This document shows, piece by piece, positions 11,086 to 29,218 of a stretch of 39,864 nucleotides of DNA. The stretch's first letter is position 1, and every line of letters starts with the position of its first letter. A model generated the notes under the pieces. That model did not search any database. It was not told the origin of the DNA and saw nothing but the letters and a program-made list of their open reading frames with translations. The DNA lies in contig NZ_HE978511.1 in the NCBI RefSeq assembly GCF_000311725.1, positions 756,121 to 795,984 of the forward strand. The letters run 5' to 3'. Made by a program: the position numbers and the translations under genes. The DNA is from Robertmurraya massiliosenegalensis JC6 (GTDB taxonomy: Bacteria; Bacillota; Bacilli; Bacillales; Cytobacillaceae).

Positions 11086-12291
11086 TTACACATGTTCATG
11101 GTGATGATGATGTTCGTAACCATGTTCTTTCGCATATTGACGGAAATTTTCTAAATCATCCATTCCTGATGAAGTACCGTCTAACGCTTGATTCATTCGT
11201 TCTAGCAATACCGTTTTTAACTTTGGATGGTAACCAAAATACTCCGCAATCTCAATCGTCACTTCTGGAAATGTCACTCGGTACTGTTGCGCCATTTTAT
11301 TCATTCTTTCCATTAATATTCCCGTAAACAAGAAATATGGCAGCATGATGATCTTTTTCGCACCTAATTTAACACAGCGGTTGATTCCTTCATCTACACT
11401 TGGAGTTGTTACACCCATAAAGGCACTCTCTACGATCGGCACATTTAATTGTTCCCATAAAAGCCGACTGATTTTATAAAAATCCCCATTTGCATATGGA
11501 TCACTTCCGCCTCGACCAATTAATAGAATCGCCGTATCCTCATGCTTCTCCTTCACATCTAGTCCAACTTCCTCGAGTCTTGATTTTAAAATCTCAAACA
11601 CTTCCTCATGAACTCCTATAGTTTGTCCGTAAGTAAACTGTATATCTGGAAAGTGTTCCTTTGCATGTTCAATTTCTGCAGGAATATGAAGTTTCGAGTG
11701 ACCTGCATGTAAGAGGATAATCGGAATAACATGTATCTCATCTGCGCCTTTTTCGACACATTTTTGGATCCCTTCTTCAATATTTGGTGAAGCAAATTCT
11801 AAAAAACACGTTTCTATAAGAAGAGTTGGATCAATATCAGCTCTCATCATTTCAACAAATTGCAGAACCTCTTCATTCCCTGCCTGTAATCTACTTCCAT
11901 GCCCAACAAATAAGACTGCTTTTTTCATAGAACTGTTTCCCTTCTTATATTTATTAATTCCTTTAATCCGATTTTCGCCGCGCTTTCGTTCACCATTCTC
12001 CATTGAGTAAATAACGGCATCTCTGTTTGCAGATTCATGAACGACAGCACGTGCAACATCCTCATCCTGGACTGAATACCACGTCCCTTTCGGATAATCA
12101 ATGACTACACATTTATCCTTACAGCGACCGTTACAGCGTGTTCGTGAAGTATGTATTTTCTCATCTAAACGATGGATGCGAATTTCGTCACGAATTTGTC
12201 CAGTGACATCTTCTGCACCTGCTCTCATACAAGTAGCTCCATTACAAATCATGATATGACGTTCCATTTGACTCAAATTCCAAGTGGTCAT
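11086..12291 (-). CDS. cbiX: ferredoxin (CbiW-like)-sirohydrochlorin cobaltochelatase CbiX fusion
   Basis: Inserts Co2+ into sirohydrochlorin, the entry step of the anaerobic cobalamin route. Residues 1-90 form a thioredoxin-like [2Fe-2S] ferredoxin domain (CNGATCM at about 16-22, then TRCNGRCKDKC at about 52-62), like the separate CbiW of B. megaterium. A basic linker (about 91-122) leads to CbiX with two related halves: KKAVLFVGHGSR with the metal His, and later TAILLIGRGGSDP. The C-terminus is a His-rich tail, YEHHHHHEHV, typical of Bacillus CbiX and thought to hold metal. I see no MxCxxC cluster motif near the tail as described for B. megaterium CbiX. The start at 12291 has GGAGGG 6 bases upstream. 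An internal ATG at 11928, preceded by AAGGG, could also yield CbiX alone. Confidence 0.9.
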   Translation of the reverse strand: MTTWNLSQMERHIMICNGATCMRAGAEDVTGQIRDEIRIHRLDEKIHTSRTRCNGRCKDKCVVIDYPKGTWYSVQDEDVARAVVHESANRDAVIYSMENGERKRGENRIKGINKYKKGNSSMKKAVLFVGHGSRLQAGNEEVLQFVEMMRADIDPTLLIETCFLEFASPNIEEGIQKCVEKGADEIHVIPIILLHAGHSKLHIPAEIEHAKEHFPDIQFTYGQTIGVHEEVFEILKSRLEEVGLDVKEKHEDTAILLIGRGGSDPYANGDFYKISRLLWEQLNVPIVESAFMGVTTPSVDEGINRCVKLGAKKIIMLPYFLFTGILMERMNKMAQQYRVTFPEVTIEIAEYFGYHPKLKTVLLERMNQALDGTSSGMDDLENFRQYAKEHGYEHHHHHEHV

Positions 12292-23043: not shown

Positions 23044-24142
23044 TATTCTCAGCCTTTCCTATGCATTCTCCGTCTAAAGTATATAATGTAGTCGAAACAT
23101 TAATAGTAGTATTAATGTGATTAATTGCATGATAACAACAGTTCTTACAAAGTGCTTCAAAGAATGCGTGATTTTCTTTCAGCAAATCAGCAACCTGAGA
23201 TGCTGTGTTCGCTTGTAGAATTTCTTTTTGAACAGCTTCATTAACCCCAACTTTTTTTGCAACACCAGCTAAAAACTCAAAGCTAACAGGGGCACTTTTT
23301 GAATGGACCATCATAATCCCCTGTGCGATCTTCGAAAATTTCCCGATCATTCCGACTAATGAAACATTAGCAATTTTCTTTTTCGCAATATGTTTTAACG
23401 TAAATCCAACAAAATCCCCCATTTCAATAAAGGCTTCTTCTGGTAGATGGGGATACTGCTTCATCGCATATTTTTCACTTCTTCCACCTGTCGTAATGAC
23501 CACGTGATCACATCCGGCTTCCTTTGCCACACTAATGGCTTGGACAATGCTTGCCATATAAGCAGAACTTGAAAATGGCACAACAATTCCTCTTGTCCCT
23601 AAAATAGAAATGCCACCAATAATTCCTAAACGGCCATTTAATGTTTTCTTTGCAATTTCTACACCATCAGGAACAGATATAATGACTTCAATGCCCGTGT
23701 CTAACTTAAATTCTTTTATGGCTTCATTTACTACTGACCGGATCATTTTACGCGGAACTGGATTGATCGCGGCTTCACCAATTGGTACTGGTAATCCTGC
23801 TTTTGTTACCCTACCTACACCAATTCCTCCATCTAAATGAATTCCTTTTCTTTTCGTAAAGCGAACCGTACTTTGAATTCTTGCTTGATGTGTTGCATCT
23901 GGATCATCTCCAGCATCTTTAATGGTTTCACATAGCACTTCATTTTCTGACACTTCAAATCTCGTCACGTTAAATGATGCGAACTGACCAACTGGTAAAT
24001 AAATCATGACTTCCTTTGGGACTTCTCCTGTAACAAGTGCTTGCAGCGCCGCCTTTGTCATTGCTGTTGCACAGGCTCCAGTCGTGTAGCCATGACGCAT
24101 TTGTGAAGGTTCTTTCTTATTTCGTTTCGTTTGCGCGCTCAT
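23009..24142 (-). CDS. cbiD: cobalt-precorrin-5B C1-methyltransferase CbiD
   Basis: SAM-dependent methylation at C1. The hallmark N-terminal motif [18 protein letters not shown] is followed by [27 protein letters not shown]-type sequence, [16 protein letters not shown] and [13 protein letters not shown]. About 377 residues from ATG 24142, whose product [18 protein letters not shown] resembles other CbiD N-termini. An ATG at 24163 and one at 24100 are alternatives, and none has a strong ribosome binding site, so translation is probably coupled to cbiC, whose end it overlaps. Confidence 0.93.
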
Positions 24143-24791
24143 CAGCCATAATTGAGATGGCATTAAGTGCTGCTACAGTCACTGTGCTGCCACCCTTTCT
24201 TCCTTTGTTTGTAATAAATGGAATTCCTTTTAGAACAGCTAACTCAGCTTTCGATTCTGCTGCTGACACAAATCCAACTGGCATTCCAATAATTAAATCT
24301 GGTTTGGCTTTTCCTTCCTTCACTAATCGAATTAACTCCAACAACGCAGTCGGTGCATTTCCAATAGCATAAATCCCTCCTTCATGTAAACGCACCGCTT
24401 TTTGCATCGAGATAATTGCGCGTGTAGTCCCTTGAGCCTTTGCTTCCTTTGCCACATCTTCATCAGCAATATAACAGTGTAAATCACCACCATGTTTTTG
24501 AAATCGTTTACGTCCTGATCCACTTTCAATCATTTGCACATCTGCCACAACATGACGGCCGGAAAGAATGGATTGAATACCAGCTTCAATCGCATCAGGA
24601 GTGAAAATCATACTCCTTCCTAGCTCAAAATCTGCAGAGGCATGGATCACACGTCTAACGACTAACCACTGCTCATCTGTAAAAGGATGGTCACCCATCT
24701 CTTCCTTAATGATCGCAAAGCTGTGATCATAAATCTTATCTGGATCTACCGTAATGGGGGTAAAGCTTGTATTAAAGTTCATGTTTGCCAT
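24117..24791 (-). CDS. cbiC: cobalt-precorrin-8 methylmutase CbiC
   Basis: Moves the C11 methyl group to C12, giving cobyrinic acid. 224 residues. Family sequence includes VRRVIHASADFELGRSMIF with the conserved catalytic His, GRHVVADVQMIESG, and AIGNAPTALLELIRLV followed by IGMPVGFVSAAESK near the C-terminus. ATG 24791 is chosen since AGGAGG lies 8 bases upstream; the two-codon longer TTG start would be too close to it. It overlaps the cbiJ end by 20 bases. Confidence 0.95.
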   Translation of the reverse strand: MANMNFNTSFTPITVDPDKIYDHSFAIIKEEMGDHPFTDEQWLVVRRVIHASADFELGRSMIFTPDAIEAGIQSILSGRHVVADVQMIESGSGRKRFQKHGGDLHCYIADEDVAKEAKAQGTTRAIISMQKAVRLHEGGIYAIGNAPTALLELIRLVKEGKAKPDLIIGMPVGFVSAAESKAELAVLKGIPFITNKGRKGGSTVTVAALNAISIMADERANETK

Positions 24792-25548
24792 TAACAAAAC
24801 CTCCTAATAAATGAGTAACTTCATCAAAATGAGTACAATAATTTTCATAGTGAATAGATGGACGCTTTATTAAAATGATCGGAATCCCTAATTTTATCGC
24901 CGCTGTCATTTTTTCATCAACAGAACCTACTTTGCCGCTCTCTTTCGTTATCATTAAGGTCACTTCATATTGCTCATAGAGTGATTGATTTAGAGAGTGT
25001 GAAAATGGCCCTTGAATGGCAATGATGTCCTTTTGTTTTATCCCTAATCGGTCACACTTTTCCATATTTTCCTTATTCGGGAGCATTCTACATACAAGAC
25101 GAATATCATCCTTCTTCAAATACTTTGTAAAGATGTCTAACGTTTTGCTCCCAGTCGTTAACATAATCGTTCCTTTATGGTTTTGAGCCAATTTTGCCGC
25201 TTCCTCATAACTGTTCACTTCTGTAATAAGGGCTGAGTGATACTGTTCTTTAGGCCGCTCATAACGTATATAGGGGATACCGCAAGCCTTTGCTGCAGCC
25301 ATCGCTGTTTTTGAAGCTTCCTCTGCATACGGATGAGAAGCATCAAGCACAACATGTAGTTCATGTTTCGCAATAAGTCCCTTCATATCATCCTCAGTTA
25401 AACGTCCCACGTGATAGGAAATATTGTATTCTCTCAAACTATCAGCAGCAGATTCGGTCACAACAGTTGCTAAGAGGGGATACCCTTGATTTCGTAAATG
25501 AATCGCTAAAGCTCTAGCGTCACTTGTACCTGCTAAAAATAAAATCAT
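24772..25548 (-). CDS. cbiJ: cobalt-precorrin-6A reductase CbiJ
   Basis: NADH-dependent reduction of the macrocycle after C1 methylation. 258 residues. The N-terminal block ILFLAGTSDARALAIHL, then LDASHPYAEEASKTAMAAA, IRYERP, ILLTTGSKTLDIF-like sequence (here IMLTTGSKTLDIFTKYL) and IAIQGPFSHSLN are diagnostic of CbiJ/CobK. ATG 25548 has AGGAGG 5 bases upstream and is preferred to the adjacent GTG. It starts 9 bases after the nitrite-reductase-like ORF. Confidence 0.94.
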   Translation of the reverse strand: MILFLAGTSDARALAIHLRNQGYPLLATVVTESAADSLREYNISYHVGRLTEDDMKGLIAKHELHVVLDASHPYAEEASKTAMAAAKACGIPYIRYERPKEQYHSALITEVNSYEEAAKLAQNHKGTIMLTTGSKTLDIFTKYLKKDDIRLVCRMLPNKENMEKCDRLGIKQKDIIAIQGPFSHSLNQSLYEQYEVTLMITKESGKVGSVDEKMTAAIKLGIPIILIKRPSIHYENYCTHFDEVTHLLGGFVNGKHEL

Positions 25549-25557
25549 CACTTCCTC

Positions 25558-26286
25558 CTAATCTCCACATGGTGCCGGTTCGACTTCAATTTTCGAACTC
25601 ATATCTTGATAATGAAAATGCTGAATTTTTTTCACTCGTTTAAAATATTTAAAGAGACGTTCATTTGGGTGAGCATTTTCCTTATACTCATCGATTATTC
25701 TCTTAAGTAGTGGCAATAATTCATCTGGCTCTATCCCTTCTGCAACGGGTTGAGCAGCATGCGCCGTACGTCCCACTGGCTTTGAGCCAATAAATAAATC
25801 AAATTTCTTCTTACGGTAGACGATACCTATATCATCAAATACGGCACGATAGCAAGCCATTCCACACCCGTTGAAGCCTATATGTAATTCCTTTGGAAGT
25901 TTTAAACCACCCAGTTCAGAAGCTATTTCCTCAGCATATGGGATAGATTCCGCTTTTTCACCGTAGCAAAAGTCACATGCCTTTATATTTAAGACATCAC
26001 CTATTGGCATTACGATTAAGCCGCTATGCTCCAGTTGCTCAACGACCGATTTCGGCTCTTCTGTTGGGAGCTTCACGATAAAACGATGATCTGGAGTATA
26101 CTCTAGTGTTCCTTTCTCCCCAATTATTTCTGCCAATAGACGCATTTGCTCAGGAGTGATAAATTTATTTGCGACTCCAGGAGTAACTGCAAATTCAAAA
26201 ATATTTTCAATCGGTTGTTGCACAAATATAGGATTTTCAACCTCTGTTTTGGTCACCATTGATACGGCCATTAAGGCTAAGTTCAA
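25558..26286 (-). CDS. nitrite/sulfite reductase-like Fe-S domain (C-terminal part of CbiH60)
   Basis: 242 residues from a TTG at 26286 (or an ATG at 26271). It has the ferredoxin-like half-domain of nitrite/sulfite reductases (NKFITPEQMRLLAEIIGEKG) and a four-Cys cluster pattern: CDFC near residue 104 and NGCGMAC near residue 141, fit to hold [4Fe-4S]. In B. megaterium the same domain is the C-terminal half of CbiH60, which uses the cluster in the C17-methylation/ring-contraction step. Here no ribosome binding site precedes either start. The TTG overlaps the cbiH TGA, and nine A residues lie a few bases upstream; adding one A fuses it in frame to CbiH. It may therefore never be made as a separate protein. 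Confidence 0.85.
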   Translation of the reverse strand: MNLALMAVSMVTKTEVENPIFVQQPIENIFEFAVTPGVANKFITPEQMRLLAEIIGEKGTLEYTPDHRFIVKLPTEEPKSVVEQLEHSGLIVMPIGDVLNIKACDFCYGEKAESIPYAEEIASELGGLKLPKELHIGFNGCGMACYRAVFDDIGIVYRKKKFDLFIGSKPVGRTAHAAQPVAEGIEPDELLPLLKRIIDEYKENAHPNERLFKYFKRVKKIQHFHYQDMSSKIEVEPAPCGD

Positions 26287-27170
26287 TGAATTCGTTTTTT
26301 TTTGCTTTTTGGCTCAGTAATCTTTGCACTTTCTTTATCTTGCTCTAACGCCCAAGGTTCTGCCTCTTTTTTCAAGCGTTGATGCGGCTTTAAGCTCTGT
26401 TTTTCTTCACCTAATGTATATTTTCGTTGATACCCACGTGGAGTAATGATTTTGTTGTCGTAAAAAAAGGTGGATGAATTCCCAATGATCACCGTTGTCA
26501 GCATCCCAATTTCATGCTCCAGCATTTCAGCTAAATTGGTCAGAACGACATGCTGGCTATCACGATATGCACTTTTTACTAATCCAACTGGTGTATCCGG
26601 CGACCGATATTTCAATAAAATTCGTTGGGCTTCAACGATTTGCCGTGTCCTCCGACCACTTTTCGGATTGTACAAGGCGATGACAAAATCCGCCATTCCA
26701 GCCGCTTCAATTCGCTTTTCGATAATCTGCCAAGGCGTCAAATGATCACTTAAACTAATCGTGCATGCATCATGCATGATGGGGGCGCCTAGTAAACTAG
26801 CACAAGAATTAATCGCCGAGATCCCTGGAACTATTTCTACTCCAATCCCCTTTTCCTCAGTCCACCCCTTTTCAATTAGCACCTCGTATACGAGTCCCGC
26901 CATTCCATAGACGCCAGAATCGCCACTGGAAATCACCGAAACCGTATGTCCAGCTTCTGCTTGCTTTACTGCTTCTTGCGCCCTCGACACTTCTTCAGTC
27001 ATTCCTGTACTTACAATCGATTGTGCCGTTACTAAATGTTCGATTAGGTCAACATACGTTTTATAGCCAATAATGTAATCACTTTGCTGCAGTGCATAAA
27101 TTGCTCGAGTCGTAATATGTTCTTCAGATCCAGGACCAAAGCCAACAACATAAATTTTTCCTAATTCCAT
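26283..27170 (-). CDS. cbiH: cobalt-factor III C17-methyltransferase CbiH (N-terminal part of CbiH60)
   Basis: SAM-dependent C17 methylation that contracts the porphyrin-type ring. Diagnostic blocks are IYVVGFGPGSEEHITTRA, SDYIIGYKTYVDLIE, SVISSGDSGVYGMAGLVYE, EIVPGISAINSCASLLGAPIMH-type sequence and FVIALYNPKSGRRT. The catalytic methyltransferase ends near residue 240; the rest is a Lys/Gln-rich linker that stops at residue 295 in SKKKRIH. The three Lys codons there are the nine-A run. One extra A gives a 537-residue protein with the Fe-S domain, about 60 kDa like CbiH60. It is the first gene of the operon, with GGAGG before ATG 27170, behind the B12 riboswitch terminator. Confidence 0.93.
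   Translation of the reverse strand: MELGKIYVVGFGPGSEEHITTRAIYALQQSDYIIGYKTYVDLIEHLVTAQSIVSTGMTEEVSRAQEAVKQAEAGHTVSVISSGDSGVYGMAGLVYEVLIEKGWTEEKGIGVEIVPGISAINSCASLLGAPIMHDACTISLSDHLTPWQIIEKRIEAAGMADFVIALYNPKSGRRTRQIVEAQRILLKYRSPDTPVGLVKSAYRDSQHVVLTNLAEMLEHEIGMLTTVIIGNSSTFFYDNKIITPRGYQRKYTLGEEKQSLKPHQRLKKEAEPWALEQDKESAKITEPKSKKKRIH
26295..26303 (-). other. A9 homopolymer: candidate slippage or indel site between cbiH and the Fe-S domain
   Basis: On the coding strand nine A residues encode three AAA Lys codons, followed by CGA ATT CAT TGA (stop). With ten A residues the frame reads on through ACG AAT TCA TTG AAC into the nitrite-reductase-like ORF without a stop. Runs of nine A are known sites of transcriptional slippage and are also common sites of sequencing or replication indels. 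The geometry is seen directly; which process applies is not. Confidence 0.6.
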
Positions 27171-27190
27171 TCGTTAACCTCCAATATAAT

Positions 27191-27233
27191 AAAAAAATGC
27201 CTGCACTCCTTTTCAAAGGAATACAGGCATTTT
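27191..27233 (-). terminator. riboswitch-controlled terminator in the cob leader
   Basis: On the minus strand a hairpin with outer stem AAATGCCTG/CAGGCATTT (27225-27233 with 27195-27203) and inner stem TCCTTT/AAAGGA is followed by a U-rich run. It lies between the B12 aptamer and the cbiH ribosome binding site, so it is the probable expression platform: ligand binding favours termination. Confidence 0.85.
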
Positions 27234-27331
27234 AAGATACAATAGATTGCTTATTATAACTTAAACACAAAAACAATAGAATTCTACTGTTCCGCCTATA
27301 CTTCTCCCGCCGAAAAGTAAAGTGTCGTTCA

Positions 27332-27478
27332 AATAAGCAGGTTTCCTGACTTAAGCTTCTTCTTACTCTTACACCTTCCCGATTTCTCAGTGGTCATGTA
27401 ATTTCATCAGCTCTTACAGTAGCGGGGGCTGTACTAGATTTTCACTAGTTTCCCTTTTACCTCACGTTCGTGAGCACT
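27332..27478 (-). promoter_or_regulatory. cobalamin (B12) riboswitch of the cob operon
   Basis: The minus strand contains the canonical B12 box as AAGTCAGGAAACCTGC (27352-27337), preceded by the conserved core features GGGAA..., ACAGCCCCCGCTACTGTAA and GGGAAGGTG. This is the standard cobalamin aptamer layout. It sits 160 bases upstream of cbiH with an intrinsic terminator between, implying repression of the whole operon by adenosylcobalamin-type ligands. Confidence 0.95.
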
Positions 27479-27507
27479 TATTTAAATTGAACTATTAAAT
27501 TGATTTT

Positions 27508-27513
27508 ACTATA
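27508..27513 (-). promoter_or_regulatory. possible extended -10 of the cob operon promoter
   Basis: TATAGT preceded by TGA gives an extended -10 (TGNTATAGT), about 30 bases upstream of the aptamer 5' edge on the minus strand. No convincing -35 stands 17 bases further up, but an extended -10 can compensate. Position fits the leader; otherwise weak. Confidence 0.35.
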
Positions 27514-27652
27514 TCATACAATTTAAACTGTGGGCATTCATTTTTTAAAATATTTATAAAAATTGTGTGAATGACTTCCTTAAACTTTTTGCAATAGAGC
27601 CGTTCTATCAAAATAGGATGATTTGAACGTTTCCTGACAATTCTAATCGTAT

Positions 27653-28153
27653 TTAATTCGCTCCTGATGAAGATGCAGCTGCAGCATGGTCAGCCTTCAC
27701 ACAGTCAATCGCAATAACGAGGGCAATAACTATAGTCTCCGTCTCTTCATCTAGTATTTCAATCTTGTAGCTGTCTCCCCAAGTAAACCATTCCTTACTT
27801 ACTTTTCCAATGAACTCACCATTGCGAATGACTTCAAAATTCATATCCCACCAGTTTCCGATGACCTCAATACCTGCTCCTTCTATCGTATATCGAGCCT
27901 TAAGAAAAGAAAATTCCTTCTTTATTGTTAATACCTCGTTGCCATTGACCTCAACATAAAACTTTGGTAAAAAACTCATTACTTTTTTCGTGATGAGGGC
28001 AACCTCCTCTCTTGAGGATTTCATAATGGAGAAAGTCTTGGGTATCTTCATAAAACTCCCCTCTACGTAATAAACATCTCTTTCCTCCTCATCTTTTACG
28101 GTGAATTTCTCATTTAGACTAAACACCTTCTGCTTGATGTATAACTGTTTCAC
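27653..28153 (-). CDS. LURP-one-related/YxjI-family protein
   Basis: 166 residues if translated from GTG 28153, where AGGGGTGA lies 8 bases upstream and the product MKQLYIKQKVFSLNEKF matches the usual N-terminus of the family. The internal repeats of the tubby-like beta-barrel are visible as KFTVKDEEERDVYYVEGSF, IKKEFSFLKARYTIEG and KVSKEWFTWGDSYKIEI. The C-terminal helix (VIALVIAIDCVKADH) and a short Ala/Ser tail complete it. Function is unknown; membrane or phospholipid binding is suggested for the tubby-like fold. It stands alone between the cob and cbiMNQO leaders and has no visible B12 control. Confidence 0.85.
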   Translation of the reverse strand: MKQLYIKQKVFSLNEKFTVKDEEERDVYYVEGSFMKIPKTFSIMKSSREEVALITKKVMSFLPKFYVEVNGNEVLTIKKEFSFLKARYTIEGAGIEVIGNWWDMNFEVIRNGEFIGKVSKEWFTWGDSYKIEILDEETETIVIALVIAIDCVKADHAAAASSSGAN

Positions 28154-28287
28154 TGTATAAATCACCCCTATTACTCTCTTTTAGTTTTGATCTTATTAGA
28201 TAGATCTTTCTGCTGATAAACTATACGATTCAAAAACATGGAAAGATTCATTATTATCTGAAGTTCATCTTCGCTTAAAATTAAAAA

Positions 28288-28322
28288 GGAAAACAAAAAT
28301 AATTTGCAGATTTTTGTTTTCC
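28288..28322 (-). terminator. intrinsic terminator of the cbiMNQO operon
   Basis: A perfect 13-bp stem (28310-28322 with 28288-28300) and 9-base loop, 48 bases after the cbiO stop, followed on the minus strand by TTTTTAATTTT. The rest of the 216-base gap to the YxjI-type gene shows nothing else I can support. Confidence 0.85.
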
Positions 28323-28369
28323 AAAGCATTGAAATTCATATATCATATGTATGAAATAAATAGTTTTCG

Positions 28370-29218
28370 TTATTCATTCTCCTTAACACCTGCATACTGT
28401 TGCAGGACTTCAAACAATTCTATTTTTGAGCGAGGATAGCTTGGCTCTTTTTTAGCTCCTTTTATTTGTTCAAACACTTCAAGTATCCATGGTAATCGCA
28501 AATGGCTTTTAGCTAATACTTGGGGATCTTGAAACACCTTAATTGGGACATTTTGAGCAATTAAGCGTCCCTCAGACAACACCCAAATTTCATCAGCCCA
28601 TTCGTAAGCGAAATCAACATCATGGGTAGAAACTAAAATCGTACGATTCTCCCTTGCTACTAAATGAAGCATATTTACCATTTCTTTTGAATAATAGGGG
28701 TCCAATCCTGCTGTCGGTTCATCAAATATCATTAGCTCCGGATTCATTGCTAATATCCCAGCAATTGCCACACGTTTTTTTTGACCTACACTTAAAAAAT
28801 GTGGTGGTTTCTCTTGTAAAGGAAAAGTATCAGTCAGCTCCATTGCTTTCTGAACGACTGTTTCAATCTCTTCTTTCGATAATCCCATATTCCGAGGACC
28901 ATATTGAATATCTTCATAAACACTAGAAGAAAAAAGCTGTGTATCAGGATCTTGAAAAACAATTCCAACATCTCCACGGAGCCTATTTTTATCCTTTCGT
29001 TTATATGAAAACTCCTTCCCTTTATAAAAGAGCTGTCCTTTTGTTGGAGTTAAAATCGCATTTAAATGGAGCAAAAGAGTTGATTTTCCTGCTCCATTAT
29101 TTCCTAGTAGCGCAATCTTCTTTCCTTTTTTTATTTGAAGGGAGATATTATTTAATGCCAGCGTTCCATCTGGATATCGATAAGATACATCCTTTAATTG
29201 AAGAAATGACTGTTCCAT
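28370..29218 (-). CDS. cbiO: cobalt ECF/ABC transporter ATPase CbiO
   Basis: ATPase of the cobalt importer CbiMNQO, 282 residues. Walker A is LLGNNGAGKSTLLLHLN, Q-loop VFQDPDTQLFS, signature FLSVGQKKRVAIAGILAM and Walker B ELMIFDEPTAGLDP, with switch His in STHDVDFAYEWAD; the DPDTQLF and SVGQKKRVAIAG forms are typical of CbiO. Start at ATG 29218 with GAGGAG 9 bases upstream; the TTG at 29227 abuts that site and is unlikely. Last gene of the operon. Confidence 0.94.
   Translation of the reverse strand: MEQSFLQLKDVSYRYPDGTLALNNISLQIKKGKKIALLGNNGAGKSTLLLHLNAILTPTKGQLFYKGKEFSYKRKDKNRLRGDVGIVFQDPDTQLFSSSVYEDIQYGPRNMGLSKEEIETVVQKAMELTDTFPLQEKPPHFLSVGQKKRVAIAGILAMNPELMIFDEPTAGLDPYYSKEMVNMLHLVARENRTILVSTHDVDFAYEWADEIWVLSEGRLIAQNVPIKVFQDPQVLAKSHLRLPWILEVFEQIKGAKKEPSYPRSKIELFEVLQQYAGVKENE

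Follow-up and report, generated by a model that had tools for sequence, protein, structure and literature searches.

The cbiH locus of Robertmurraya massiliosenegalensis JC6 reads as two frames but is, very probably, an ordinary CbiH60 gene in which one of ten consecutive A's has gone missing, through a recent replication-slip mutation or through a miscount in sequencing. What looked like a plausible case of recoding is most likely a known enzyme with a one-base lesion, or a miscall, in a homopolymer. We refer below to the whole stretch of DNA that was analysed, 39,864 nucleotides, as the window.

A CbiH60-type gene divided at nine A's

On the minus strand, the cbiH frame runs through exactly nine A's and closes with AGC AAA AAA AAA CGA ATT CAT TGA, as the first-pass annotation had read it (Table 1). 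The second frame lies at -1 relative to the cbiH frame, and its candidate starts are a TTG at 26286, which overlaps the TGA, and an ATG at 26271, five codons further on. The first half is a CbiH according to its profile match (TIGR01466, 333.7 bits against a cut-off of 246.35), and the second is recognised as an NIR_SIR domain (PF01077, 42.4 bits against a cut-off of 27), whose CDFC and CGMAC motifs are present in all 120 fused homologues listed. Profile matches thus identify both an N-terminal CbiH domain and a C-terminal Fe-S domain with its cysteines, as in CbiH60. One polypeptide of ~60 kDa is not encoded in this assembly, where there are two frames; it is found in the near-identical protein P0002, described below. 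The earlier proposal that a CbiH60-type gene is cut at the A9 run is borne out by these two matches and by the fused forms in P0002 and in relatives. The 537 codons given for the rebuilt frame also hold (292 to the run, 3 at the junction and 242 beyond), in agreement with the length of the natural protein P0002.

Table 1. Features of the cbiH locus, in window coordinates
Feature	Position	Strand	Content and basis
cbiH frame, 295 aa	26283-27170	minus	Whole CbiH methyltransferase domain (TIGR01466 positions 1-239 of 239) and N-terminal part of the linker
A run, n = 9	26295-26303	minus	Site of frame loss (ten A's in R. siralis); sequence reading
TGA stop of the cut cbiH frame	26283-26285	minus	Three sense codons beyond the run
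Second frame, 242 aa from TTG	25558-26286	minus	Remaining linker and Fe-S (NIR_SIR) domain with CDFC and CGMAC; without ribosome binding site
Cobalamin riboswitch upstream of cbiH	27319-27496	minus	Rfam RF00174, 115.7 bits, gathering score 31.5 (scan of 24000-29000)

The 21-base junction sequence occurs once in the genome. We considered whether another cbiH might free the cut copy and ruled this out: the genome search returned no second cbiH, and its three further matches are weak, with E-values from 1.1e-11 to 2.5e-6; two of these fall within cbiF and cobA.

Two observations touch on the domains of this operon. CobG belongs to the aerobic pathway, where it acts immediately ahead of ring contraction. 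The Fe-S half (25561-26286, minus strand) also matches the CobG profile (TIGR02435), at 21.6 bits and far under the cut-off of 234.8, a possible sign of relatedness between these two Fe-S parts. Separately, a ferredoxin-like part and a second part, which we take to be CbiW and CbiX, form a single 401-aa frame at 11086-12291 on the minus strand; an internal ATG may also serve as a start, and the frame aligns without gaps over 393 residues to R. siralis.

The uncut form in a near-identical protein and in relatives

A protein search with the natural R. siralis protein as query returned P0002, a continuous protein of 537 aa that matches 292 of 292 residues of the cut CbiH and 240 of 242 residues of the second frame. 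Only one of these mismatches is real, a His/Tyr difference at residue 520, whose Tyr form is also found in P0128, a 150-aa fragment; the second arises because the TTG start is read as Met. The P0002 junction, KKK-TNS-LNLALM as read from the protein, is what ten A's would encode, so the DNA behind P0002 probably carries ten A's. The near-identity also suggests that P0002 comes from the same species. P0002 represents a cluster of three sequences, which lie on three contigs. The cut form of 295 aa (P0181) is a single sequence among the best 120 of 6277 matches, on a contig of 1,249,335 bases that we take to be the one holding the window; the 242-aa half of the window is absent among the matches listed in a second protein search.

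In the predicted model of P0002 (mean pLDDT 78.9, pTM 0.49), residues 271-293 fall below a pLDDT of 50, which places the cut in a predicted flexible linker. A Foldseek search gave only methyltransferases among the 50 matches listed, with poor superposition (rmsd 12-15), and a sequence search of solved structures gave matches confined to the CbiH half.

Robertmurraya siralis, the closest named species (loci L003 and L032; 93.5% and 86% identity), carries a ten-A run at this position, and its frame is continuous. The two operons are colinear, and the best alignments are free of gaps except for two gap columns in the binding-protein gene. For a wider comparison we took the genomes with the second domain at E <= 1e-60, which number 58 of 193 in the family and 85 of 397 in a sample of the order; four are common to both sets, for a total of 139. 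In 137 of the 138 other genomes an open frame, at least 443 aa long, spans the junction, so the joining of the two halves is more than chance; in the genome with the 443-aa frame (G098) the DNA shows a later cut, inside the Fe-S domain. The sole exception (G068, the same as locus L238), from another genus of the family, has one cut at a linker run of A7 and a second in the Fe-S domain. All 80 of the 80 named loci, a set that overlaps the genome set in species, likewise read through the junction. L099 is broken earlier, inside CbiH, and L239 within the Fe-S domain; together with L238, these loci probably reflect noisy assemblies. The comparison of the junction in close relatives suggested by the first-pass annotation thus yielded plain fusions in P0002 and R. 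siralis, and no examined relative with the same cut.

Other cut copies do exist in the two protein searches. Among the matches listed, seven pairs of CbiH and Fe-S halves lie on apparently common contigs, judged by eye from equal contig sizes alone: P0182/P0121, P0185/P0126, P0190/P0124, P0195/P0125, P0204/P0166, P0212/P0139 and P0233/P0142. The ends of these other cut copies fall in or near this linker. For P0182, P0185 and P0187 the protein ends suggest a single-base change in A-rich codons of the linker; the others end elsewhere. P0185/P0126 (contigs of 113371), by eye a Peribacillus-like cut CbiH60, has 16 and 18 member sequences in its halves and may represent a more widespread cut form.

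The second frame as a possible gene of its own

Alternatively, the locus could hold two working genes, with the Fe-S half translated alone through stop-start coupling at ATTGA. The TTG does overlap the stop of the cbiH frame, the linker is predicted to be flexible, and cbiD and cbiG, whose ribosome binding sites are weak, likewise overlap their preceding genes, which makes coupled starts possible in this operon. To score the starts, we paired the 20 bases upstream of each with what we presume to be the sequence of the 16S tail, using 2000 random 20-mers from the window as the baseline. Pairing is -0.9 kcal/mol at the TTG and -0.6 kcal/mol at the ATG, and the best value over the first 30 codons is -3.2 kcal/mol, against a median of -3.0 and a 25% quantile of -5.6 kcal/mol for the random 20-mers. 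By this measure, no start within the first 30 codons of the second frame has a ribosome binding site, in keeping with the first-pass annotation. Its companion statement, that many genes in this operon do have such sites, stands for 15 of the 17 other operon genes, whose best starts pair at -7.9 kcal/mol or more strongly over the same stretch, but does not extend to all of them, cbiD (-5.6) and cbiG (-6.4) being weak. In the fused relatives, moreover, these residues belong to a linker in the middle of the protein. The second frame does not have the look of a separate gene, and because it lacks a ribosome binding site we regard an independent second gene as very unlikely.

A-runs in the linker

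The linker consists of variable, lysine-rich residues. From 151 loci we obtained 150 linkers, of which 122 are distinct, and the longest A-run per linker ranges from 2 to 10. Runs of eight or more A's number 12 in the 23,163 nt of the 122 distinct linkers versus 3 in the remaining 182,046 nt of these genes; these are raw counts from mutually related linkers, uncorrected for lysine or A+T content. Nine or ten A's occur in 7 of the 122 linkers, all of them in fused genes, and all three codon phases are represented. Since the run differs in both length and phase, there is no conserved slip site. A shift site that had been kept would hold run, phase and stop together; the linker pattern does not, which favours the reading that the CbiH60 linker resembles a mutational or base-calling hot spot. 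The distances from A-runs to off-frame stops were set aside as evidence, as they are accounted for by the conserved codons after the run. For annotators, the CbiH60 linker is a place where broken frames should be expected.

Mutation or miscall

The first-pass annotation had offered a sequencing or recent mutational indel as one of two options, and the comparison with P0002 and R. siralis favours it. Between its two forms, we slightly favour a real mutation over a base miscall. We lean this way because the other frames of the assembly are intact, and a single miscall is only somewhat less probable. A search of the genome for runs of nine or more A's listed 77 matches, corresponding to 67 distinct runs, of which 66 were examined and one, on contig 13, was left out. 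Twenty-three other such runs lie inside frames of at least 90 aa that read through them, some of which may be chance frames. A simple rule flagged six runs as possible splits; on closer inspection, the cbiH run was the only one seen to separate two frames that homology identifies. On this basis, which covers 66 of the 67 runs, we rejected a generally poor assembly. One run of eleven A's (G000:C4, ~172546; L158) is flanked by a 62-aa and a 110-aa frame that differ in phase.

The second frame contains no stops, nor do 11 other operon genes, and its dN/dS against R. siralis is 0.061, compared with 0.016-0.076 for those genes; these ratios are rough, as dS runs from 0.84 to 2.1 and is near or above saturation for several genes. 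Since the second frame falls within the range of the operon, there is no sign of old decay, and old decay alone is excluded.

Our preferred reading, the loss of one A, would start from an ancestral tract of ten A's. If the nine A's are real, most ribosomes would stop three codons past the run and yield a 295-aa CbiH with its methyltransferase domain whole, and there would be little or no Fe-S half on its own. RNA-polymerase slippage to ten A's, or alternatively a -1 ribosomal slip on A_AAA_AAA, may then supply a minor share of full-length enzyme. Should the lesion be real, this strain would be a natural test of the Fe-S half of CbiH60, with the methyltransferase domain whole and the B12 operon otherwise intact.

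Slippage and frameshifting

One possibility goes a step further: that the nine A's are real and that slippage or a -1 ribosomal slip incidentally rescues enough CbiH60 for B12 synthesis, beside plain CbiH. This is compatible with the loss of one A and adds a claim on expression. A_AAA_AAA stands in the zero frame of the run, and the remaining operon genes examined are intact. Published slippage cases make some rescue credible: an A11 run is reported to rescue Citrobacter rodentium tssM1 at ~20% (PMC4256274), in vivo slippage at nine A's or T's is described as being of "high efficiency" (PMC5009743), and homopolymer frameshifts in Blochmannia are thought to be corrected by slippage (PMC3017870). 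Yet poly(A) constructs transcribed in Escherichia coli by the host polymerase are reported to show almost no rescue by insertion, with 0.39% insertions at A7 (PMC6260861), and our search of open-licence PMC literature found no measurement of slippage in Bacillus. The RNA fold downstream of the run is also weak, with a z of -1.55 (14 of 200 shuffles as good) and of -0.82 for a second stretch; R. siralis gives a z of -1.63, though no shift is needed there. Weighing both sides, we consider such a rescue possible but unlikely. As background, one report regards slippage as unlikely in genomes where >20 genes carry 9A or 9T, provided that such runs are not under-represented (PMC1088944).

A stronger proposal is a programmed, conserved slippage or frameshift device that gives CbiH and CbiH60 in a set ratio. 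As in known cases, a zero-frame stop comes directly after the nine A's here, and in a related pathway a frameshift in chlD is reported to let one gene yield two products (PMC9227772). Against this, the cut is unshared and the seven linkers with nine or ten A's are every one in frame, in all three phases, whereas a conserved frameshift site is taken as a criterion in PMC3711429; among relatives no such conservation was found, as 137 of 138 junctions are open and run length and phase vary. We found no report of slippage in cbiH in open-licence PMC, and "cbiH" is absent from the main text of PMC3711429. As the cut is not common to relatives and the run is not conserved, we reject programmed recoding as extremely improbable. 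The suggestion of the first-pass annotation that the A-run sets the ratio of the two products fails with it, given that P0002 and R. siralis are plain fusions, that the cut is in no examined relative and that run length and phase vary.

Another idea, which we regard as quite improbable, is that the A9/A10 tract acts as a contingency locus: ten-A strains would make the Fe-S enzyme, and nine-A strains plain CbiH plus a minority of CbiH60 set by slippage. If it were true, tract length would tune the amount of cluster-bearing ring-contraction enzyme in each lineage. With regard to such phase variation, the two states observed are the cut window and the uncut, near-identical P0002, which may be of the same species.

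Comparison with known systems

CbiH60 of Bacillus (Priestia) megaterium, attributed to Moore et al. 2013, is reportedly one 60-kDa protein with a bound [4Fe-4S] cluster and ring-contraction activity. Like the window's gene, it has a CbiH domain followed by an NIR_SIR-type Fe-S domain and lies in an anaerobic B12 operon, but it is one protein there, compared with two frames in this assembly.

Four published cases share the homopolymer or the lesion. As in the window, tssM1 of C. rodentium breaks off soon after a poly-A run, and the domain that it lacks is encoded in the next frame; its run, however, is A11, slippage was measured at ~20% and both products are reported to be needed (PMC4256274), whereas the run in the window is A9. 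The dnaX gene of Thermus thermophilus likewise has nine A's within the gene and a C-terminal part that looks dispensable (PMC1088944, PMC5009743). There, the zero frame leads to the long product and slippage is used, while in the window the zero frame leads to the short product. Dehalobacter restrictus PER-K23 also has a strain-specific lesion of cbiH in an otherwise complete corrinoid gene set (PMC4285132). Its lesion is a 101-bp deletion in a strain described as a likely corrinoid auxotroph; that of the window is one base and leaves the methyltransferase domain whole. Finally, Blochmannia shows single indels in poly-A and poly-T tracts of otherwise intact genes (PMC3017870), as here, but these are AT-rich insect symbionts in which some indels are common to species, whereas the window comes from a presumably free-living relative of Bacillus and its indel recurs in none of the relatives examined.
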